From Phycisphaerae bacterium (GTDB lineage: Bacteria; Planctomycetota; Phycisphaerae; UBA1845; PWPN01), in assembly GCA_018003015.1 (NCBI GenBank), contig JAGNEZ010000002.1, positions 1-64,000 on the forward strand: DNA of 64,000 nucleotides, read 5' to 3'. How positions within the stretch are numbered: position 1 is the stretch's first letter; each line of letters opens with the position of its first letter. Position numbers and translations under genes: made by a program. This document shows positions 8,934-48,778 of this stretch, in pieces. A model generated the notes under the pieces. That model worked only from the letters and a program-made list of their open reading frames with translations, did not search any database and was not told where the DNA came from.

Positions 8934-9674
8934 ATGCCCCGAATCGTGAGTGTTGGGCAGATGACGGACGATCCGTGCGTGACTTCGCCGAGCCCAAACG
9001 GCCCTGCCGGCGAGGGGACGCGTGCCGTCAACCTGCTCCTGTTCATCGGCGTGTTCTTCGTGACATGGGCCATCCTCGCCAAGACACTCTGGTACTCGCC
9101 GGCCAAGCCCTGGCTCGACGCGCGGTTGGGCAAGCAGGCGGCCGACGTGGCTCTGTCGTGCCTGAAGGCGGCTATCTGGCTGGGTACCGCCGCAATCTTC
9201 CTGCGATGGCGAGGATGCTCCGACGGGCTCGCTTCGCTGGCTCTCAAGGACCACGTCTGCCGCGGTCTGTTCCTCGGTCTTGCGATCGGGGCGTTGTCCC
9301 TGGCGAAGGACTTCATCCGGGTGACGCATATCGAGCACCGGGAGCCACTGCCGCTGTCCGATCCGGCAGCCTTGGTGATCATGATCATCGGAGCGCCGTT
9401 CATCGAAGAAGTGCTGTTCCGGGGGTGCATCCTGCAGGCGTTGAGGCAGCATGCTCGCTTCGGGTGGGCGAACCTGGCTCAGGCGATTCTCTTCTTTGCC
9501 ATCCACCTGCCCGGCTGGTTCTTCGCCGGTACGCTCACGACCCACCTCCACCCTGGCACGTCACTGTCCATCTTCGTTCTCGGCTTCTTCCAGGGCTATC
9601 TGCTCAAATGGACCCGGAGCCTCTGGCCCTGTGTTTTGCTCCACTTCGCGAACAACTACGGAGCCCGGCTGTGA
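8934..9674 (+). CDS. CPBP-family intramembrane glutamic protease
   Basis: Multi-pass membrane protein of about 246 residues of the CPBP (CAAX protease/Rce1/bacteriocin-processing) family. The three family motifs are present: FIEEVLFRG (EExxxR), FFAIHLPGW (FxxxH) and LHFANNYG (HxxxN). Membrane segments lie at the N-terminus (NLLLFIGVFFVTWAILA), in the middle (ALVIMIIGAPFIEE) and near the end (SIFVLGFFQGYLL). The start is uncertain: a TTG at 8913 abuts a perfect AGGAGG, while ATGs at 8934 and 8961 are in frame but have poor spacing. It is 30-60 bases downstream of trpB and may be co-transcribed. CPBP proteins often process peptides or anchor proteins; the substrate here is unknown. Confidence 0.87.
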   Translation: MPRIVSVGQMTDDPCVTSPSPNGPAGEGTRAVNLLLFIGVFFVTWAILAKTLWYSPAKPWLDARLGKQAADVALSCLKAAIWLGTAAIFLRWRGCSDGLASLALKDHVCRGLFLGLAIGALSLAKDFIRVTHIEHREPLPLSDPAALVIMIIGAPFIEEVLFRGCILQALRQHARFGWANLAQAILFFAIHLPGWFFAGTLTTHLHPGTSLSIFVLGFFQGYLLKWTRSLWPCVLLHFANNYGARL

Positions 9675-9890
9675 CGGCTTGTCCGCCGTGCCTTGAGCCA
9701 AGCGGTGGGCGCTGCCGACCAGGGTCGAGGGGGCGGGATGATCGTCGGACATGCCCCGTGCAGCACCCGTGAAGTGTCTCGAACGTTGCCCGCCTCGCCA
9801 CGGTCAGCCAATCGTCCATCCGCGTACGGTTGGGCTTCAGGTCGATGTCTCCGAGTCATGACTGGACATGGACGGTCCCGAACCGCTGAA

Positions 9891-9926: not shown

Positions 9927-11264
9927 ATGTCACCGCGACGAGCCATGACCATCATGTGTCTGCTGGTCGGCCTGTCGTCCGTCGGCCTCCGTGCGGGGGA
10001 CACGGTCGCGACCGCGCAACCGCGTCATTCGCCCGAAGTCGAGGCCCTGCTGACCCAGGTACAGCAGGCGGGCATCCGCTACTTCGATGCGTTTGGCCAT
10101 CCGGTTTCGGGTCTGGCCCGGGAGGGTACCGGTCACGGCCCCGACGTTTGCGCCGTCGGCGCGACGGGCATGGGGCTCTTCAATCTGATGGTCGGCGTCG
10201 AGCGTGGCTTCCTCACCCGGGCCCAGGCCGCGAGGCGGATTCGCCAGATGCTCCGGTTCCTGGCGACCAAGGCCGACCGATTCCATGGCGCCTTCCCGCA
10301 CTGGCTCGACGGGCGGACCGGGAAGGTCATCCCGTTCAGTCCCAACGACGACGGCGCGGATCTGGTCGAGACCGCGTACCTGGCTCAAGGGCTGATCGCG
10401 GTGCGCGAGTACTTCTCGGCGGACGATCCGGTCGAGACCGAGTTGCGCCGCTTGGCCGAGAAGATGTGGCGGGAGATCGAATGGGACTTCTTCGTGAAGG
10501 AGAAGAACGCCGACGCGTACCTCCTGTGGCATTGGTCGCCGCGGGTCGAGTGGAGGATGAACCACCCGGTGCGCGGTTTCAACGAGTGCCAGATCACCTA
10601 TCTGCTGGCTTTGGCTTCCCCGACCCACGCGGTGCCAGCCAAGTGTTACTGGCAGGGATGGCAGGGCCGTGACTATGCCCGAGAGCGCGAGCACTATGGC
10701 GTTCATGTCTCTCTGGGCCGAGGCCTGGAGATGCCTCTCTTCTTCGTCCACTACTCGTATCTCGGGTTCGACCCCCGAGCGATCTCCTTCGAGGGCAAGA
10801 CCTACTTCGAGCACTTCCGGGATCTGTGCCGCGTGCAGGTTCAGTATGCCCGGGTCAAGAGCGGCACCTTCGCAGGCTATGGCCCCCTGTGGGGCTTGAC
10901 GGCCTGTCTCGGTCCCGACGGCTACAAGGCGTTTGCCCCTGGTGATGGTGACGACGGCACGCTCGCTCCTACCGCCGCCCTGTCCAGCATGCCGTACGTC
11001 CCTCAGGAGAGCCTGTCCTGTCTGCTGGAGCTGGATCAACGCTACCGGGCTCGTCTGTGGGGCGGCTACGGCTTTGCCGACTCCTTCAACCTCTCTCGGG
11101 CCTGGGTGTCGAAGACTTGGCTGGGAATCGACCTCGGGCCGATCGCCCCCATGATCGAGAACTACCGGACCGGACTGTGCTGGCGGGTGTTTATGAAGGC
11201 GTCTGAGATCGAACCCGTCCTGCGGCTTCTCCGCGAGCCGCAATCCGGGCCCAAGCCCAGCTGA
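9927..11264 (+). CDS. glucoamylase-like secreted glycosidase (PF10091 type)
   Basis: A 445-residue exported protein of the 'putative glucoamylase' family that includes GH144 beta-1,2-glucanases. Signal peptide MSPRRAMTIMCLLVGLSSVGLRAG. Family landmarks are NECQITYLLALASPTH, LEMPLFFVHYSYLGFDPR, WGLTACLGPDGYKAFAPGDGD, TAALSSMPYVPQES and LGPIAPMIENYRTG, which line the (alpha/alpha)6 barrel active site in relatives. The start at 9927 is set by the signal peptide and by a leaderless promoter; an ATG at 9945 is also possible. Longer upstream frame is not coding-like. The likely role is endo- or exo-cleavage of a beta-glucan outside the cytoplasm; the substrate cannot be read from the sequence. Confidence 0.85.
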   Translation: MSPRRAMTIMCLLVGLSSVGLRAGDTVATAQPRHSPEVEALLTQVQQAGIRYFDAFGHPVSGLAREGTGHGPDVCAVGATGMGLFNLMVGVERGFLTRAQAARRIRQMLRFLATKADRFHGAFPHWLDGRTGKVIPFSPNDDGADLVETAYLAQGLIAVREYFSADDPVETELRRLAEKMWREIEWDFFVKEKNADAYLLWHWSPRVEWRMNHPVRGFNECQITYLLALASPTHAVPAKCYWQGWQGRDYAREREHYGVHVSLGRGLEMPLFFVHYSYLGFDPRAISFEGKTYFEHFRDLCRVQVQYARVKSGTFAGYGPLWGLTACLGPDGYKAFAPGDGDDGTLAPTAALSSMPYVPQESLSCLLELDQRYRARLWGGYGFADSFNLSRAWVSKTWLGIDLGPIAPMIENYRTGLCWRVFMKASEIEPVLRLLREPQSGPKPS

Positions 11265-17605: not shown

Positions 17606-18357
17606 CGAACATGCATCCCCTGGGGGCCGATCAGCAGGCGGAGTGGCTTCAGGAAGCGGCCGGTGATCGGGTTTCGCTCACCATCAACTACCACGGTGTT
17701 GGAGCCTGGGCCACGCTGAAGTCCCGTCTGTTGCGCGCCGATCGATCCGGCGATCTGTTGGTGATCCTCTATCCGTACGTTGCCGACGGCGCTCAGCCTG
17801 AGATCGTCGTCGGGGAGAGCCTGGGCGTCGCATTCCGCCGTGGACACGAGAAGTGTGTCTTCGAAAGCCAGGTGATCGGTCGCACGAACTATCCCATGGG
17901 TGGGGGGATCGAGGCACCGGTCCTGGAGATCGCCTGGCCGGACAGCGTTCACGAATTGCAGCGGCGCCTCTTTTCGCGGACCCGGGTTCCGCCCCGGGTC
18001 GTTATTCCTGTCGATGTGGCTCGCTGCCAGCCGGCCGCCGACAAGCTTGGGCAGTCCGCCCGCGGCGTGCTGCTGGATCTCTCGGCCGGGGGCATCAGTG
18101 TCGCCTTGCCGGAAGCCAAGGGGCCTCGCTGGAGGGCCGGTGACATCCTGACCTGCAGCTTCGCTCTGGAGTCCGGCCGCTCGGTGCAGAAAGTGACCGG
18201 GACATTGCGGCACTGTGACAAGACTCCCGACGGCCGGCGGCGCCTTGGCCTTCAGTTCGTGGGCCTGGAGACATCGGCCAGCGGCCGGCGGACCATCGAA
18301 TCCATCGCCCGGGTTGCCAGCCGGTTCCGCCGCCTGGAAATCCCCGAGTGCCGCTGA
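17602..18357 (+). CDS. PilZ-domain protein, YcgR-like, second of a pair
   Basis: A 251-residue protein with a YcgR-N-like first half (SLTINYHGVGAWATLKSRLL) and a C-terminal PilZ domain. The c-di-GMP signature is RRLFSR at 121-126 followed by DLSAGG at 159-164. The PilZ domain ends with RRRLGLQFVGL, matching the usual 'xxxlGvqFvdl' strand. The ATG is inside the stop region of the previous gene (ATGA overlap) and four bases after AGGAGG. Two tandem PilZ proteins that differ in their first halves could act as heterodimer partners or sense different outputs. Confidence 0.87.
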   Translation: MTNMHPLGADQQAEWLQEAAGDRVSLTINYHGVGAWATLKSRLLRADRSGDLLVILYPYVADGAQPEIVVGESLGVAFRRGHEKCVFESQVIGRTNYPMGGGIEAPVLEIAWPDSVHELQRRLFSRTRVPPRVVIPVDVARCQPAADKLGQSARGVLLDLSAGGISVALPEAKGPRWRAGDILTCSFALESGRSVQKVTGTLRHCDKTPDGRRRLGLQFVGLETSASGRRTIESIARVASRFRRLEIPECR

Positions 18358-18534
18358 GGGGTGCCTGCCTCATTGCCATCCGGGGGGATCGGCTTCGGGT
18401 TGAATCCGCTTCTCTCATGCCTGTAGACTGTCTCCGGTGTTGTTCGCGCCCGCGGGCCGAACGGCGCCATCCCTCGCCAGGCGGAAGCGTCTGCCGCCCA
18501 GGTTGAAGGACCTGCCTGACACGGGAGTGGTGGA

Positions 18535-19500
18535 ATGCGCATCCGTGGAGCCCGGGTCGTTGCGGCGATCGTGGTTGGACTGGTCCCTTCGCCGTGTTTT
18601 GCATGGGCTGGGGACGGGCACCGGATCATCGCCGAGATTGCCGCTCGCCAGTTGGATCCCAGAACCGAGCAGGAGATTCGGGCCTTGCTCGGCGACAAGT
18701 CGATCGTAGAGGTGGCCAACTGGGCCGATGAAATCAAGAGTGACCGCAGCTACGATTGGGCCAAGCCGTTGCACTACGTGAACGTGCCGGCGGGGGCCAC
18801 CTCGTTCAAGATGGATCGCGACTGCGCGAAGAGCGGGTGCGTCGTCTCCGCCATTCTCGACTATCAGACTGTGCTTCTCGACGAGAAGGCCACAACCGCC
18901 CAGCGGGCTGAAGCGCTGAAGTTCCTGATCCACTTCGTCGGCGACATCCATCAGCCTCTGCATGTGGGGCGGGCCGTGGACCGGGGAGGAAACGACATCA
19001 AGGTCGAGTTCTTCTTCGATCGGACGAATCTGCATGTGGTCTGGGACGAGCTGCTGATTCGCCGTGTGAGGAAACCCTGGTTTCAGTACGCCGAGGAGCT
19101 TCGTACGAGGATTACGCCCGAGAGGCTCGCCCATTGGCAACGGAGCAGGGATGTCTGCGCGTGGGCGACGGAATCCGCCAAGCTGGCCGCGGACTTCGCC
19201 TACCAGGTCCCCAGGGATGGCCAGATCGCCGAGGCGTATTTCGACCGGACCATCCCCGTCGTGGAGGATCGTCTGTTGGCGGCCGGGGTACGATTGGCGG
19301 TGTTGCTGAACGGAATCTGCGGGGATCGAAAAGCGACCGCGACGGCACCGGCTTCCGGGCCGGCTCCGAACGTTCCGGAGGGGAGCAGACCCGCGATCGC
19401 CGGGCGTTTGCCGCGGGGGGTGGCAGCAGTCCGAGGACAGAAGAACACCGGGGCAGGCGGTCGCCCGCTCGCCCCGGCGCGGTTTCGGTTCTCACCGTGA
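18535..19500 (+). CDS. S1/P1-type zinc nuclease
   Basis: A 321-residue secreted nuclease of the S1/P1 family, which degrades single-stranded nucleic acid through a trinuclear zinc site. The signal peptide ends at CFA, leaving Trp24 as the mature N-terminal residue, as required because its amino group binds zinc. The other ligands are visible: His29 (WAGDGH), Asp in NWADEIKSD, His in HYVNVP, HFVGDIHQPLH and LHVVWDE. The C-terminal 60 residues are an Ala/Pro/Arg-rich tail that is not part of the fold. GGAG sits about eight bases ahead of the ATG. Probable role: nucleic-acid scavenging for phosphate or nucleosides outside the cytoplasm. Confidence 0.93.
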   Translation: MRIRGARVVAAIVVGLVPSPCFAWAGDGHRIIAEIAARQLDPRTEQEIRALLGDKSIVEVANWADEIKSDRSYDWAKPLHYVNVPAGATSFKMDRDCAKSGCVVSAILDYQTVLLDEKATTAQRAEALKFLIHFVGDIHQPLHVGRAVDRGGNDIKVEFFFDRTNLHVVWDELLIRRVRKPWFQYAEELRTRITPERLAHWQRSRDVCAWATESAKLAADFAYQVPRDGQIAEAYFDRTIPVVEDRLLAAGVRLAVLLNGICGDRKATATAPASGPAPNVPEGSRPAIAGRLPRGVAAVRGQKNTGAGGRPLAPARFRFSP

Positions 19501-19518
19501 TTCCATCTGCTCCGGTCG

Positions 19519-21783
19519 TTACTTCGATTCCTCTCTCTGCTCCTTTTCCTTCACCGGGGCCCCCTCGTTTTCTTCGCCGGCTTTCAGCGGCCGGCCGAGG
19601 CGCTCCGCCGTGTTCTTCAGGGCTTCCTCGAAGGCGGTCATGCTCATCCGTTCTGCGTGGCCGTCCAGGAAGAGTACGCCGATGCGTTCCTTGCCGCCGC
19701 TCGGTGGTCGCTCGTAGGCCAGAATGTCGCCCGGATTGCTCTTATCGGTATGGCCGGCGACGTAGATGTAGGAACACTTGCGGCTCGGGTCTCGATCGAG
19801 AGGTGAAATGAGTATCTCGGGCTTGATCGTGCCGGCCTTGAGCAGAGTGTTGAGATCGGGAGGGAAGTTGCCGTGGTGCTCGCTTGCATACATGTGCAGG
19901 CCGATACCGATACTCTTCAAATTGGTGAGGGAGACCATCTCCCTCGCGGTCTCCCGGGCCCGAGCCAAGGACGGGAGCAGGATCGAGACCGCCAGCGGGA
20001 TCGCCATGCCACCTTCACCCATCGAAGGGATCTCGACGGGCAGCGGGCCGTGCCCGACCATCATCCAACCGTCGGGTACCGCCACGAGACACCCAACGTC
20101 CCCGAACAGGTGCTTGCTGATACAGGTCAGCGAGGGCAGCACGCTCGCGTCGAGCTCGAGTCCCTCCCCCTGGCCGATGGACAGCAGCAGTTGGGAGACG
20201 GGCAGGCCGATGGCATAGAGTTGACGTACCCCTTCGGCCGTATCGCTGTAGACGACTGAGCTTGCCCCCTTGGGCAGCAGCTGGTAGCCCCGCTGGAAGT
20301 CGGCATTGTCCAGCAGCGACGGCCCCTGGTTCATCATGTGGTCGAGGGCCGTACGAACCATCTGCGGGTACAGAGCCATGACCCACCGATTCTTGTAGAT
20401 CGTCCAGGCCGGGGCGATCGGCATGGGGACGCCCGGGCAGTTCACGAAGGTGATCGTCTGGTCGCGGTAGGTCTCATGTTGGACAGTGACCTGGTCCTCG
20501 GCGTCGGCGGCTTCCGCGATCGCCTTGACGATGGCCTGCAAACCTTGATCGAGTTTATTGTCCGCCTTGACCTCGGCGATGACGGTCAGCCCGGTGAACC
20601 AGAAGCCCCCGGCGCTGGGCGAGTTGTACCAGACCCACGTATCCCCGAACCCGGCTAACAGGTCCTCGTCTACCTTCATCCCGAGCCGTTTCTCGACCTC
20701 GGCGATTCCCTGTGAGACGGGATCTGCCACCTCCGGGCCGAGAATCTTCGTCAGATTCAGCCCCCACCGGTATAGCTCAGCCACGTCCCCGTTGTCGACC
20801 GATGCGCTGGTGGCGTCCTTGGGAACGAGGGCTAGATCCGCGTCGGTCAGCGGCTCGCCGCACAGCCCGTTGCCTTCGCTGCGGCCCATGCCGGGGACGC
20901 GGGCGAAGAAGGTCGTTCTGAACCCACCCGCTTGCGGGGTCTGGACCAGAGTGAGCGACTCCAGCTTACCGAGGCCGGTCTCGTCCAGAACCTTGCGCAG
21001 TCCGCCAGGCACACCCAGGATCGGCACATCGCCGGCCGCGAACATGGCCTGAAACGCCTCGAGCGTTCTCACCGTCTCGGCCAAGTCGAGATACAGCAGG
21101 GGGGGGGCACCCGAGCCGCCGGTGGCCTTCATGGCGGCCGTGAAGTGCGGCGAGCCGGTCAGTCGCTTGACCCCGTCACTGCCAATGAGCAGGTCCGTCG
21201 TCTTGGTGCCCAAGGAGACGATGAAGTCATCACCGACCACACCCCAGCGAATCGGCATCAGTGGGCCGAGGATGGCCAGTTCCTTCATCTTCAGCTTCGA
21301 GTCTGCCGGCAGCGTGGTGGCGGCGTCGAGCGGCAACTCCGCCCGCCGGGCCAGCTTCTCAACCTGGTCCTGCAGCTTGGGTGCGTCCTTCCCCGCACGC
21401 ACCACGAGGGCCGCATCGACCATCGTGCCGCCGCCGCCCACACTCCCCAGACCGACCGCGAAGGGATACTTGCCCAAACTCCGCGCCAGATCACAAGCTA
21501 CGCCCGCGAGCTCCTCCTCCGCCTGGCTGGCCGCCTGTTTCTTGATCAGAGCGACCAGTGCCGGCATGAGCTTCTCGCGGAGTGGGGCCATCTGAGGCTC
21601 GGCCATGATTCTGCCCAGGGCGGTATCCTCGCAGCTCTGGGACAACTGGTCGAGGCCCGGCCAGTTCAGGTACAAGATCGTTCCTTCCGGGAACAGGTCC
21701 GACATCTCGCCTGCCGAAACGGCTGGACAAGCCACCCCCAGCCAAAGCACCCCGATCCAACTCCATCGCGCGACCCGACTCAT
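19519..21783 (-). CDS. large secreted protein with pseudopilin-like C-terminal segment
   Basis: A 754-residue protein beginning with a signal peptide (VARWSWIGVLWLGVACPAVSAG). AAGGAG upstream of the ATG at 21783 fixes the start. The first 550 residues resemble large DUF3352-type periplasmic proteins, with repeated FAVGLG, LYLDLAETV and TWVWYNSP elements. Near residue 600, PLAVSILLPSLARARETARE is followed by SLTNLKSIGIGLHMYASEH, the exact pattern of planctomycete/verrucomicrobial type II pseudopilin-like (DUF1559-type) proteins, and VLFLDGHAERMSM matches their 'fxDGHv' end. Normally that pattern sits at the N-terminus behind a prepilin signal; here it is internal. The tail is Glu/Lys-rich. The function is unknown. 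Confidence 0.75.
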   Translation of the reverse strand: MSRVARWSWIGVLWLGVACPAVSAGEMSDLFPEGTILYLNWPGLDQLSQSCEDTALGRIMAEPQMAPLREKLMPALVALIKKQAASQAEEELAGVACDLARSLGKYPFAVGLGSVGGGGTMVDAALVVRAGKDAPKLQDQVEKLARRAELPLDAATTLPADSKLKMKELAILGPLMPIRWGVVGDDFIVSLGTKTTDLLIGSDGVKRLTGSPHFTAAMKATGGSGAPPLLYLDLAETVRTLEAFQAMFAAGDVPILGVPGGLRKVLDETGLGKLESLTLVQTPQAGGFRTTFFARVPGMGRSEGNGLCGEPLTDADLALVPKDATSASVDNGDVAELYRWGLNLTKILGPEVADPVSQGIAEVEKRLGMKVDEDLLAGFGDTWVWYNSPSAGGFWFTGLTVIAEVKADNKLDQGLQAIVKAIAEAADAEDQVTVQHETYRDQTITFVNCPGVPMPIAPAWTIYKNRWVMALYPQMVRTALDHMMNQGPSLLDNADFQRGYQLLPKGASSVVYSDTAEGVRQLYAIGLPVSQLLLSIGQGEGLELDASVLPSLTCISKHLFGDVGCLVAVPDGWMMVGHGPLPVEIPSMGEGGMAIPLAVSILLPSLARARETAREMVSLTNLKSIGIGLHMYASEHHGNFPPDLNTLLKAGTIKPEILISPLDRDPSRKCSYIYVAGHTDKSNPGDILAYERPPSGGKERIGVLFLDGHAERMSMTAFEEALKNTAERLGRPLKAGEENEGAPVKEKEQREESK

Positions 21784-38739: not shown

Positions 38740-40746
38740 CTACCCCCGTATGGACCACGCCTGGTAGCCGAATACGTTCCAGGAGCCGGTTTCGACCTCA
38801 ATGCGGATGGCGAGCTTGTCCTTGCCCGCGGTCAACGGCGGGGGCAGGATGAAATCCTCCTCACGCCAGCGATCGACCTTGCAGTCGTCCGGCGTACCCA
38901 TGAAACCGACCGGCGAATCATCTACGCTCACGCGGGCACGGTGCCGACCTTCCGATTGGAGGTACAACCGCCGGAGCAACACACCCTTGTTGGCCGGGTC
39001 GATCTTCATCGTGAAGGACTCCTCGGTCGCCCCCTTGCGGCCGTCCACCTGCAACGTGAGCGAGGCCGGATCGCTCTCATCTCCCGTGAAAGTCGCCTTG
39101 GCTCCGGCCACGGATTCGCCCCCCTCGGCTCGGTAGGTGTGGGACTGCTCGCTGGAACCGTTACCGAGCTCGAGCATGTCGGTCGGGACCATGCCCGGCT
39201 GATCATCGAGGTAGCAGTAGGCCACGCTGGCGTAGTTCGTGACAACCACGTTGTTCAGGCCATGCTCCGTGCTGACCTTGATGCCCGATCGAAACGGGAT
39301 TCCACCCGCGAAGAAGCGATAGGCGGTGATCGCTCCGTTCCACTGGCCGTCAGCTCGCTCGCGGAACAGGTCGACTGCGGGCAGGCCGTGAAGCGGGAGC
39401 GAGTAGGGACCCTCCAGCCAGCGGTTGGACCAGCCGCCAAGGAACTCGTCCTCGTGGCCGGTGCCATTCAGGATCGGGTGCCGCCGACGGTCCGGCCAGA
39501 CACGCAGGTCGCCTTCCCACCATTGCTTGTTGTCGGCCGCATAGGGCTGCACCATGAGGCAGTGGCCCAGGTAGAGACCACGCCCTTCGTCGAAGTGCAG
39601 GATCAGATGGTCCTTTCCTGCGGTCGTGGGCCATTCACGATGGTAGACGGCCGTGAACAGCCCGGGCGGGCAGTCCTCCCCGCGGGCAGGCAAATCACTG
39701 ACCGCGATCTCGTAGTGAATCCCGTTGATCGAGCTGAACTGGTGATTCTCGAGGACGATCCTGGCCGCCTTGCGAAACGGCATGGGCAGATAGCAGTAAT
39801 ACGGGCCGCTGGAGCTCATGCCGATCGCCAGCGAGCGAACCGCCGTCTCGCCCAGGGCACTGCCGAAAAACGGTCCAAGAGGAACATCAACCGAGGGCTT
39901 CTCCTGGCCATCCCACCAGATTTTGAGCCAGAGGTGGTTCAGGTTGAACCCAGCTTGCGGCTGGCCGGGGTTGAGGCGAATGGCCCGGATCATCCCCGAC
40001 GTCTGGAGGTTCAGCAGCTCGGCCACCTTGGGCTTGTCGCGACGTTCATTGCCCGCGACCCCGACCGCGCCCCGGTACCACTTCATGCCGGACGAGCGGG
40101 CGGGCGGTGCCCCCACCGCGTCCCAGGCCGCAATCGCCGCCGTCAGATCCTCCTTGCCGGTCCAGGTCTGAACCCGCGTGCCGGGGGGAAAACGGTGATG
40201 GAAGGCATTGTAGAAACCGGCCAGCTTCTCCGTGGTGATAATCAAGCGTCGCTGGAAGGGGATGGGTACATACGCGACGTTCCCACCCGTGGCGATGTAG
40301 TCGTTGGCTACAAGCGGGGCCGGGAACATGGGATGGTCGCCGGTAAACAGCTCCCGTGCCTCCACCGCCGCTCGGGGCGTGTCCTCGCCATCGAGGTAAA
40401 AGCGGATCTGCCCGATGGGCAACTCATAGCCCTCGTGGATGCCCGTGAACCAGAGAGTGTAAAGGCAGCCGGGACCGTCAAGATCGACGATCACGTGCTC
40501 GCCGTTCGCAAGCCGGTATAGGGCTGAGTAGGTGCCCTCGAAGCCGTCGTTGTTACCGCCCGTCCGATCATAGCTCGAGAAGTAGCCGGCCTGCACCAGC
40601 CACTGAGGGCCTGGACACGAGCCGAACCTGAACAAGGCGTCAGACGGCCGAATCTCGGCCTGGGCCGCCGCTCTGAAGGGGCCCGCAGCCAAGACCAAAG
40701 CCATTAACGCCATTCCGAGGAAGCCGTTCGCGAACGATCTCAGCAT
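38740..40746 (-). CDS. DUF2961 (GH172) family protein, long form
   Basis: A 668-residue exported protein of the DUF2961/GH172 family, which includes difructose dianhydride-processing alpha-fructofuranosidases and exo-D-arabinofurananases. Signal peptide up to FRAAAQA. The core is PGCLYTLWFTGI (usual 'GpGvi.RiW'), FQRRLIITTE, PYYCYLPMPFRKAARIVLEN and GTGHEDEFLGGWSNRW, which replaces the more common GTGTEDYF. The last 130 residues are an extra beta-rich domain. It is the promoter-proximal partner of the methyltransferase. It shares family but not length with the copy at 45027. Confidence 0.87.
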   Translation of the reverse strand: MLRSFANGFLGMALMALVLAAGPFRAAAQAEIRPSDALFRFGSCPGPQWLVQAGYFSSYDRTGGNNDGFEGTYSALYRLANGEHVIVDLDGPGCLYTLWFTGIHEGYELPIGQIRFYLDGEDTPRAAVEARELFTGDHPMFPAPLVANDYIATGGNVAYVPIPFQRRLIITTEKLAGFYNAFHHRFPPGTRVQTWTGKEDLTAAIAAWDAVGAPPARSSGMKWYRGAVGVAGNERRDKPKVAELLNLQTSGMIRAIRLNPGQPQAGFNLNHLWLKIWWDGQEKPSVDVPLGPFFGSALGETAVRSLAIGMSSSGPYYCYLPMPFRKAARIVLENHQFSSINGIHYEIAVSDLPARGEDCPPGLFTAVYHREWPTTAGKDHLILHFDEGRGLYLGHCLMVQPYAADNKQWWEGDLRVWPDRRRHPILNGTGHEDEFLGGWSNRWLEGPYSLPLHGLPAVDLFRERADGQWNGAITAYRFFAGGIPFRSGIKVSTEHGLNNVVVTNYASVAYCYLDDQPGMVPTDMLELGNGSSEQSHTYRAEGGESVAGAKATFTGDESDPASLTLQVDGRKGATEESFTMKIDPANKGVLLRRLYLQSEGRHRARVSVDDSPVGFMGTPDDCKVDRWREEDFILPPPLTAGKDKLAIRIEVETGSWNVFGYQAWSIRG

Positions 40747-45026: not shown

Positions 45027-46691
45027 ATGCCCACACTCAACACCAACCACGCTGGCGGACGGGTGCGCCGTCGCCTCCTGTCGGCTCTCGTGTTCCTGCT
45101 GCTCGCGACCTGGGCTTGGGCTCAGGGCGCGTTGTCGGAGCTCGCTCGCCCCGTGCAGGGCAGAAGCATGAGGGCAACCTCTTCGTTCCGGCAAGGCTCC
45201 GACGGCAAGTATGATGCCCATGCCAACCCCCTCGGCGACGAGCAGGAGAAAAGCAACTTCGACAACCGGCTCGTGCCCCCCGGCGATCAGGTCGTTCTGC
45301 TCGACGCCCAGGGCCCTGGGCTCGTCACCCACATGTGGTTCACGTTTCTGGAACCCCAGCCCAGGCGAGACAACAAGCCCGGCCGGGCGAACCACCAGGA
45401 ATTCCTGCTGCGGATGTACTGGGACGGAAGCGAGCGGCCCGGCGTCGAAGCGCCGTTCGGCGATTTCTTCGCCAGCTGCTTCGGTAAACGCCGCGAGGTG
45501 AACAGCGTCCCCGTGGCCGTCGAGGGCGGCGATTCGTACAACTGCTACTGGCACATGCCTTTCCGCAAATCGGCCCGCATCGAAATCGCTAACGATAGCG
45601 ACCGCCCCCTGGTTCTGCTCTATTACAACATCGACTGGATCAAAAAGGACAACCTGCCGGAGGACACACCCTACTTCTACGCCCAGTACCGCCAGGAGTA
45701 TCCCCAGACCAGCAGCCAGGACTACGTGATCCTCGACACCCGGGGCAAAGGACACTACGTCGGCACCGTCCTGGCGATTCGCACCCGCAGCCCCCTGTGG
45801 TTCGGCGAGGGCGATGAGAAGATCTACATCGATGGCGAGACGAAACCGTCCATCTGGGGAACAGGAACCGAGGACTTCTTCTGCTGCGCCATGGGGCTGG
45901 CAAACTGCAGCCTGCCCTATTTCGGCGTCCCCTACTTCAATCAGTTCGAGATCGTCGGGAGTATGACCGCCGCCTATCGCTGGCATGTCGGCGATCCGCT
46001 GGTGTTCAACACGGGTATCAAGGTCACACTCGAACACAAGAGCTGGATATCGGAAGATGAGAACCCCGACCACAAGCGGATGAGCTGGAATGAACGCGAG
46101 GACGATTACGCCAGCGTCGCATTCTGGTATCAGACCGGAACCCCGACCTTCGCGGCCCGAGCCCCGAACGCCAACGAACGGCGACTGCCCAGCCTGGATC
46201 GTGTCGTGGCCTTGGCCAGGAACTTCACCGATGCCAGGTACCACGGCAACGGCCACGCCGGCCCCCAGCCGATCCCAGATCTCTTCGACGAGCCGCAGCT
46301 CTTCTACCGGCCCGAAAAGGCCGACGGTGCTTTCGTCGAGGTCCCCTTCGAGGTCAAACGCAAGGAGCCGCTCCGATTGCTGATCAACGTCACCTGCGCC
46401 CCGGACTACGGCCGGTACCAGGCATCCTTGGAGGGGGTGAAACTCGGCGGGGTGATGGACTTCCACGCAGAGACACTGATCGACCGGGAATTCCACCTGC
46501 TCGACTTCTGGCCCGAGCCGGGTACCTACACGCTCCGGCTGGAGTGCGTCGGCAAAAGTAACCGCTCGGAGGGATACTGCCTCGGCCTCGAGTCCGTTCG
46601 ACTCCGCGAACGCCGTCCCCGAGTCGAGCAATACGGCTTCGACAAGGACAAGGACTGGCGCAAGCGGCCGATTCTGTACACGAAAGAGTAG
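45027..46691 (+). CDS. DUF2961 (GH172) family protein, short form
   Basis: A 554-residue exported DUF2961/GH172 protein. Signal peptide ending near TWAWA. The family core is GPGLVTHMWFTFL, EAPFGDFFASCFG, YNCYWHMPFRKSARIEI, PSIWGTGTEDFFCCAMG (canonical GTGTEDFF) and EIVGSMTAAYRWHVGDPLVFNTGIKVTLEH spread over the following strands. A C-terminal beta-domain ends in LRLECVGKSNRSEGYCLGLE. Relatives act on fructofuranosyl or arabinofuranosyl linkages. It is a paralogue of the protein at 38740 but keeps the canonical motif. Confidence 0.88.
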   Translation: MPTLNTNHAGGRVRRRLLSALVFLLLATWAWAQGALSELARPVQGRSMRATSSFRQGSDGKYDAHANPLGDEQEKSNFDNRLVPPGDQVVLLDAQGPGLVTHMWFTFLEPQPRRDNKPGRANHQEFLLRMYWDGSERPGVEAPFGDFFASCFGKRREVNSVPVAVEGGDSYNCYWHMPFRKSARIEIANDSDRPLVLLYYNIDWIKKDNLPEDTPYFYAQYRQEYPQTSSQDYVILDTRGKGHYVGTVLAIRTRSPLWFGEGDEKIYIDGETKPSIWGTGTEDFFCCAMGLANCSLPYFGVPYFNQFEIVGSMTAAYRWHVGDPLVFNTGIKVTLEHKSWISEDENPDHKRMSWNEREDDYASVAFWYQTGTPTFAARAPNANERRLPSLDRVVALARNFTDARYHGNGHAGPQPIPDLFDEPQLFYRPEKADGAFVEVPFEVKRKEPLRLLINVTCAPDYGRYQASLEGVKLGGVMDFHAETLIDREFHLLDFWPEPGTYTLRLECVGKSNRSEGYCLGLESVRLRERRPRVEQYGFDKDKDWRKRPILYTKE

Positions 46692-46757: not shown

Positions 46758-47192
46758 TCAACAGTCCGCGGCGGTCGAAAGAACGAGCTCCCGGTAGGCC
46801 CAGGCTGGCCGCTGCGTCAGCGGACCGGGCCTCTCCCCGGCGATGGCTTTCCGCTCCACCCGGGTGACCGGTATCACCTCCATGATCGCATTCGTCAGGA
46901 AGACTCCGTCCGCTTGTCGCAAATCCCTGATGGTGCGGGGCCACTCCTCAGCCGGAATGCCCAATTGCCCGGCCAGCTCCAGAACGGCTGCCCGGGTAAC
47001 GCCATGTAACCCCCATTCCACCGTCATGACCGGGTCGAACGCCGCGATCGTGAAACGTCCCTCCGGGGCCCGCGTACCGACGCTGTCCAGCACGACCGGC
47101 CGGCGGCGGGCGGCCACACGGGCCAGGACCGCTTCGACCGGCAGATTCACCGCGGCTTGGACACTTCGGATCCTCACGTTTCTCGTTGACAT
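46758..47192 (-). pseudogene. remnant joining PabB N-terminus to PabC C-terminus
   Basis: A 144-residue frame that looks like an internally deleted pabB-pabC fusion. Residues about 14-54 (AAVNLPVEAVLARVAARRRP, VVLDSV, GRFTIAAFDP) match the start of aminodeoxychorismate synthase component I, the segment before its chorismate-binding domain. Residues about 64-135 (GVTRAAVLELAGQLGIP, ADGVFLTNAIMEVIPVTRVE, RPGPLTQRPAWAYREL) match the end of aminodeoxychorismate lyase, a class IV aminotransferase. The whole catalytic core of PabB and the PLP lysine half of PabC, about 600 residues, are missing. The frame is still open and has an AAGGGTG upstream of its ATG, so a short peptide may be made, but neither reaction is possible. 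Confidence 0.7.
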
Positions 47193-47386: not shown

Positions 47387-48778
47387 ATGAACGCTTGTCG
47401 ACAGCAGGTTGCATGGACGTGCTGGATCGTACTGTCTGCATTCGCGACCGCCGCGTGGGCTCAGGCGACGACCCAGCCTGCGGCCGAGGTCAAGCCTGCG
47501 GCCGAGACCGCTCCGCCGGCCACGAAACCCGCGGCCGAAACAACCGCCGGTGAATCCAAGACCGGCCGCGTGCGGGGCAACGACGTCTACGTCCGCAGCG
47601 GGTATGACGCAAGCTACTACCCGGTCACCAAGCTGAATCGCGGAGACGAGGTCACTGTCTTGGGCTCGGTTTTCGGATGGCTGGAGATTATGCCACCTGC
47701 TGGAACCTACAGCCTTGTCGAGAAGACCCGCGTCGATCGCCCGACCGCAGACGATCAGGTCGGCGTGCTGAACGATACCGCTCAGGTCTTCGCGGGCAGC
47801 AATCTCAACGACCGCAAGTACGCCAAGCAGATCAAGCTCGTCAAGGGCGACCGGGTGAAGATCATCGGCGAGAGCGCCGACGGCGGTTTCTACAAGATCG
47901 AGCCGCCGCCGGGCGCCACCCTGTGGATCAAGGGCGATCTGGTCGACCGCACCGGCCGGCTGGACGACGAGGTGGCTACCAGGCCCGCCAAGATCGAAAC
48001 CGTCCGGCCGGGCGAACTGGCCGGCGAAAAAGCAACAACCGGTAAGGTGACGCTCGACGGCGGCCAGCCCCGGCTCGAGAAGCCAAGACCCACGACGGCT
48101 CCCGCGGAGCCTGAAACCGGTGTGGGGAAGTACCAGATGGAAATCACGGCCATCGAGGCCGAGATCGCGGCCGAGACCGTCAAGCCGGTCGATCAGCGCA
48201 GGTACGAGCCGATCATCAAGAAGATTCAGCCGCTGGCCGACCAGTCCGAAGACCTGACCGCCCAAACCTACGGCAAGTACCGCATCACCCAGCTCCAGCG
48301 GATGATCGAACTGGTCGCCGCGGTCCGCGAAATGCGCGAGCTCAAGGACCGGGCCCTGACCGATGCCGAGCGGATCGCACGCGAGCGAGCGAAGATCACC
48401 GTCAAGCCCGCCCCTCCGCCAGACGAGATCGCGGTGCGCGGCGAGATCCGGGTGAGCGGCTTGTACGACGGTTCGTCCAACCGGCCAAAGCGGTGGCGGG
48501 TGGTGGATCCGAAGACCGATCGCACCTTGGCCTACATCGAGGTGCCGGCTGGCAGCCCGATCGATCCAGTCCACTACTACGGCAAGTACGTGGGCATCCG
48601 GGCCAGCGAACAGCGCTTCCTGCAGAACACGCTCCCGCCGGTGCCCGTTTTCGTGGTTCGGGAAATCACCGTCCAGGACCCCGCCGCCGCGCCGACCAGG
48701 TCCACGGTCATGCCCGTGCCGTCGACTTCGGAGCCCACGCGAACCACCATGCGGCCCACAACGGGTGCCGCGAAGTAA
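47387..48778 (+). CDS. secreted protein with two bacterial SH3 domains
   Basis: A 463-residue exported protein. Signal peptide MNACRQQVAWTCWIVLSAFATAAWA, then an Ala/Pro/Thr-rich linker (about 27-55). Two SH3b-like domains follow: VRGNDVYVRSGYDASYYPVTKLNRGD (about 60 onward) and VLNDTAQVFAG...LVKGDRVKIIGES (about 125 onward). A helical segment (about 255-330) and a C-terminal domain VRGEIRVSGLYDGSSN precede the end. SH3b domains often bind cell-wall peptides; here no catalytic domain is attached. The start is set by the signal peptide. It is divergent from the PabB-PabC remnant. Confidence 0.82.
   Translation: MNACRQQVAWTCWIVLSAFATAAWAQATTQPAAEVKPAAETAPPATKPAAETTAGESKTGRVRGNDVYVRSGYDASYYPVTKLNRGDEVTVLGSVFGWLEIMPPAGTYSLVEKTRVDRPTADDQVGVLNDTAQVFAGSNLNDRKYAKQIKLVKGDRVKIIGESADGGFYKIEPPPGATLWIKGDLVDRTGRLDDEVATRPAKIETVRPGELAGEKATTGKVTLDGGQPRLEKPRPTTAPAEPETGVGKYQMEITAIEAEIAAETVKPVDQRRYEPIIKKIQPLADQSEDLTAQTYGKYRITQLQRMIELVAAVREMRELKDRALTDAERIARERAKITVKPAPPPDEIAVRGEIRVSGLYDGSSNRPKRWRVVDPKTDRTLAYIEVPAGSPIDPVHYYGKYVGIRASEQRFLQNTLPPVPVFVVREITVQDPAAAPTRSTVMPVPSTSEPTRTTMRPTTGAAK

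Follow-up and report, generated by a model that had tools for sequence, protein, structure and literature searches.

Aminodeoxychorismate synthase component I (PabB) is described by two Pfam domains, the N-terminal PF04715 (Anth_synt_I_N) and the chorismate-binding PF00425, and aminodeoxychorismate lyase (PabC) by the class IV aminotransferase domain PF01063 (Aminotran_4), with a lysine that is expected to bind PLP. Fusions of PabB with PabC are known in other bacteria. Auxotrophy through loss of PABA synthesis, with the rest of the pathway retained, is familiar, and chimeric pseudogenes that arise by deletion are also known. Our literature search returned no work on the pabB-pabC locus.

The window analyzed here is a stretch of 64,000 nucleotides from a Phycisphaerae metagenome-assembled genome (MAG), hereafter G000, and contains a 144-codon frame that begins like pabB and ends like pabC. 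Compared with PabB, residues 1-64 of the hybrid are homologous to the start of the protein of a same-genus relative, G001, but the hybrid lacks the chorismate-binding domain and the greater part of the N-terminal domain, and so cannot be a PabB enzyme. Compared with PabC, residues 65-144 align with the terminal part of both the family profile and the G001 protein, but residues 1-204 are gone, including the lysine expected to bind PLP, and the hybrid cannot be a PLP enzyme. It does not correspond to a PabB-PabC fusion enzyme either, given that the two domains are encoded by separate genes in the relatives rather than in one ancestral frame. The likeness is instead to chimeric pseudogenes made by deletion, with which the locus shares the position in adjacent genes, 4 bp of homology at the ends of the lost segment, a chance in-frame join and an excess of changes at conserved sites; the sole difference is that the frame happens to remain open. 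Ordinary gene decay by short-homology deletion of this kind is already known.

Structure of the hybrid frame

The hybrid frame lies on the minus strand, running from an ATG at 47192 to a stop at 46758, with neither a stop codon nor a frameshift within its 144 codons (Table 1). A sequence-only reading of the window had described it as an open frame with a PabB-like start and a PabC-like end, which the translation, the Pfam matches and the comparison with G001 bear out. That reading had also proposed profile searches of both halves, and a clear match was obtained for the second half only. Hybrid residues 61-112 align with the last 52 positions of Aminotran_4 (172-223 of 223, E = 4.5e-12), the remainder of the profile being absent, and NCBIfam and PDB searches likewise identified this part as the end of a class IV aminotransferase. 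For the first half, residues 20-59 gave a weak match to the start of Anth_synt_I_N (profile positions 6-43 of 140, E = 0.03), below the gathering cut-off, and PF00425 was not detected at all. The PabB origin of this part is settled by direct comparison with G001: identity to the start of G001 PabB is 88%, over residues 1-64 as well as 1-65, and identity of residues 62-143 to the end of G001 PabC is 87%. All but one of the 30 bases preceding the hybrid ATG are also the same as in G001. Between the two halves, about 440 PabB residues and 204 PabC residues are missing, in agreement with the roughly 600 residues of catalytic core that had been estimated from the sequence.

Table 1. Features of the pabB-pabC locus, with positions in the window
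Feature	Position	Strand	Basis
Hybrid frame of 144 codons (pabB start, pabC end), interpreted as a putative pseudogene	46758..47192	-	Translation, Pfam, NCBIfam, G001 comparison
pabB remnant, residues 1-64 of 504	47001..47192	-	88% amino-acid identity to G001; start codon and upstream bases retained
pabC remnant, approximately the C-terminal 80 of 285 residues	46758..46999	-	Pfam and G001 comparison
Deletion junction, GGCG	47000..47003	-	4-bp microhomology, at both ends of the lost segment in G001; 1,952 bp missing
Upstream neighbor, SH3_3-domain protein, divergent	47387..48778	+	Same neighbor in G001, G003, G004, G009 and G010
Downstream neighbor, DUF2961 protein, convergent	45027..46691	+	Same neighbor in G001

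A second DUF2961-type protein, a distant relative of the one in Table 1, is encoded near the locus, at 38740-40746. The product of its G001 counterpart, at 17806-19812 of the G001 region described below, gives a 33% match to the DUF2961 protein of Table 1.

The intact locus in relatives

As the reference for the intact locus we used G001, a Planctomycetota MAG (record JAKLEZ010000001), within the region G001:C1 724000-743999 (L055). Here pabB (504 aa) and pabC (285 aa) are separate adjoining genes in different frames, pabB ending at position 10917 of the region and pabC starting at 10932, with a stop codon and 14 bp between them. G001 PabB contains both expected Pfam domains and G001 PabC the whole of Aminotran_4, but both proteins score below the NCBI equivalog cut-offs for their families. 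Because the equivalog models are not passed, the names rest on the domains, on the adjacency of the two genes in relatives and on the presence of a separate trpE and a separate ilvE-like gene, and PabB and PabC activities are presumed for these proteins. Within the reach of their contigs, G003, G004, G007, G009 and the remaining relatives that we examined show the same arrangement of separate neighbors.

A probable single deletion between neighboring genes

The window and G001 are collinear, with about 93% identity on both sides of the locus and a single large gap at pabB-pabC, where the window is 1,952 bp shorter. Thus an intact locus with collinear flanks exists at the same place in a relative, as expected for a pseudogene formed by internal deletion. 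In G001 each end of the deleted segment carries the motif GGCG, which is present once at the junction in the window (47003-47000 on the minus strand). The lost segment extends from pabB codon 64 to pabC codon 205, and its length fits the frame offset between the two G001 genes exactly; when the 1,952 bp were removed from G001 in silico, a 144-codon frame with an identical junction was obtained. Residue 146 of G001 PabC, the lysine of an HKT motif which we take from family knowledge to be the PLP-binding lysine, lies inside the deleted part.

As judged from this comparison, a deletion between neighboring genes explains the hybrid frame, and a single event would suffice. The ends of pabB and pabC were probably joined by a microhomology-mediated process (slippage or end joining). 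As the deletion took away the chorismate-binding domain entirely, together with the PLP lysine, the 144-aa product, if made, would have no catalytic activity. The alignment of the window with G001 is also broken at two other places, 1424-1695 and 9084-9814, the latter comprising about 730 bases where G001 has about 45.

Probable decay of the remnant

The dN/dS values against G001 were 0.35 for the pabB remnant and 0.29 for the pabC remnant, compared with 0.15-0.23 for four flanking genes. Since they also span the period preceding the deletion and the G001 branch, on which the genes are intact, even a pseudogene should show a value below 1 here. At conserved sites the difference was larger: 6 of 57 had changed on the G000 branch in the remnant, compared with 1 of 532 in the control enzymes TrpE and IlvE (p = 4e-6), which together with the raised dN/dS indicates relaxed constraint. 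When amino-acid changes were polarized with outgroups from the family, 11 (one of them the junction residue) fell on the G000 branch and 2 on the other. A stricter count gave 10:2 (G000:other) against 7:10 for the controls, which is borderline (p = 0.053). Among the changes on the G000 branch are L to R, E to G, M to I and L to P, each at a position where the relatives show little or no variation. On the strength of the excess of changed residues on this branch, the deletion may, by a rough estimate, date to about the final third of the interval since G000 and G001 diverged. The suggestion in the sequence-only reading that the deletion was recent is borne out on an evolutionary scale.

Searches of 60 relatives did not recover the short hybrid form in any of them. 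The open frame itself is weak evidence for function, because the chance of an in-frame joining is 1 in 3 and about 46-76% of frames stayed open in a neutral simulation with 10-30 substitutions. Given the raised dN/dS, the loss of conserved sites on the G000 branch and the lack of the short form in every relative searched, a dead gene is favored: the hybrid frame looks like a decaying pseudogene and would now drift without constraint.

Alternative readings of the locus

We consider it very likely that the hybrid is the scar of one 1,952-bp deletion in a two-gene pabB-pabC unit, that the remnant is now a pseudogene, and that the cell takes PABA or a folate precursor from outside or has an unrecognized route. 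A deletion inside an ancestrally fused PabBC gene, as had been proposed from the sequence, is supported by the existence of such fusions in other bacteria and accounts correctly for one deletion with an in-frame join, which the collinearity with G001 confirms. The fused ancestor, in contrast, has next to nothing to recommend it among these genomes: pabB and pabC are separate neighbors in all the relatives listed above, the G001 genes differ in frame with a stop codon between them, and the deletion length matches precisely that offset. As the genes are separate in G001 and other relatives, the fusion is the product of the deletion and not its ancestor. The gap might alternatively be an artifact of assembly or strain mixing, the species being intact and the segment having been dropped or a minority allele followed. 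The G000 MAG comprises 144 contigs and is 3.4% contaminated, and an alternative allele of 1.9 kb could vanish at binning. We nevertheless regard such an artifact, including the chimeric assembly that the earlier reading had raised against itself, as improbable, considering that the 4 bp common to the ends should be far below any assembly word length, that both flanks are collinear with G001, that G000 does not contain the deleted DNA, and that the remnant is substituted at invariant sites, which would not be so if a functional gene had been misassembled in its middle.

Slightly less probable still is the retention of the hybrid as a small non-catalytic protein, for example one that binds the TrpG/PabA glutaminase or another partner in the folate pathway. 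The open frame, the almost unaltered region around the pabB start and the presence of trpG/pabA in G000 would all fit such a role. Against it, sites conserved among relatives have been altered on the G000 branch far more often than in the control enzymes, the absence of the short form extends to every other genome searched, an open frame would be expected without selection about half of the time or more, and the hybrid holds just part of the PabB N-terminal domain. The narrower version, in which the hybrid is expressed and was kept as a small partner (e.g. of a shared TrpG/PabA glutaminase) after PABA synthesis had been abandoned, is a shade more doubtful again. The deletion scar thus remains the preferred reading: the gene loss is real and well resolved, but ordinary. 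It provides a base-exact example of how a deletion across neighboring genes can produce a plausible-looking hybrid frame, and cautions against reading an open frame alone as a gene.

PABA synthesis in G000 and its order

Searches of the 6.86-Mb G000 genome with the deleted segment gave no match elsewhere except a short cross-match to trpE, and no intact pabB or pabC, fused or separate, is left. A single full Chorismate_bind gene is present, the orthologue of G001 TrpE, and likewise a single full class IV aminotransferase, which is orthologous to the G001 IlvE-like gene; a genome-wide search revealed no other pabB or pabC. The genes folP, folK, trpE and trpG/pabA are retained. Two possible bypasses were considered and rejected: an alternative, CADD-type route to PABA (TIGR04305) and AbgT-type transport of p-aminobenzoyl-glutamate (PF03806) were found neither in G000 nor in 12 other relatives searched. 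The IlvE-like enzyme might substitute for PabC in G000; no candidate replacement for PabB was found in this genome. Since G000 has no intact pabB or pabC, no CADD route and no AbgT transporter, it would depend on an external supply of PABA or of a precursor further along the pathway. The best reading is that PABA synthesis was recently lost and that G000 is a predicted PABA auxotroph, a prediction drawn from gene absence in a MAG that is 98.7% complete, in 144 contigs. With folP, folK and trpG/pabA kept, the cell would have to rely on imported PABA, on an imported folate precursor or on an unrecognized route. The predicted dependence of a planctomycete on outside PABA would be a small case of vitamin-precursor dependence.

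Across the order, a PabB-type gene was present in 70 of 73 genomes with a completeness of at least 90%, the exceptions being G000, with its remnant only, G010 and G020. G020 (94% complete) lacks a Chorismate_bind gene of either kind, TrpE or PabB, and gave no match to PabB, which suggests either that the entry steps to both tryptophan and PABA have been lost or that contigs are missing. In G010, which belongs to the same family as G000, no PabB was found elsewhere in the genome; at the locus itself the SH3 gene and an intact pabC are kept and pabB is cleanly gone from between them (5353-5909 of L106, G010:C63:1-12000). Because this loss is independent of the deletion in G000, pabB has been lost at least two times in the family.
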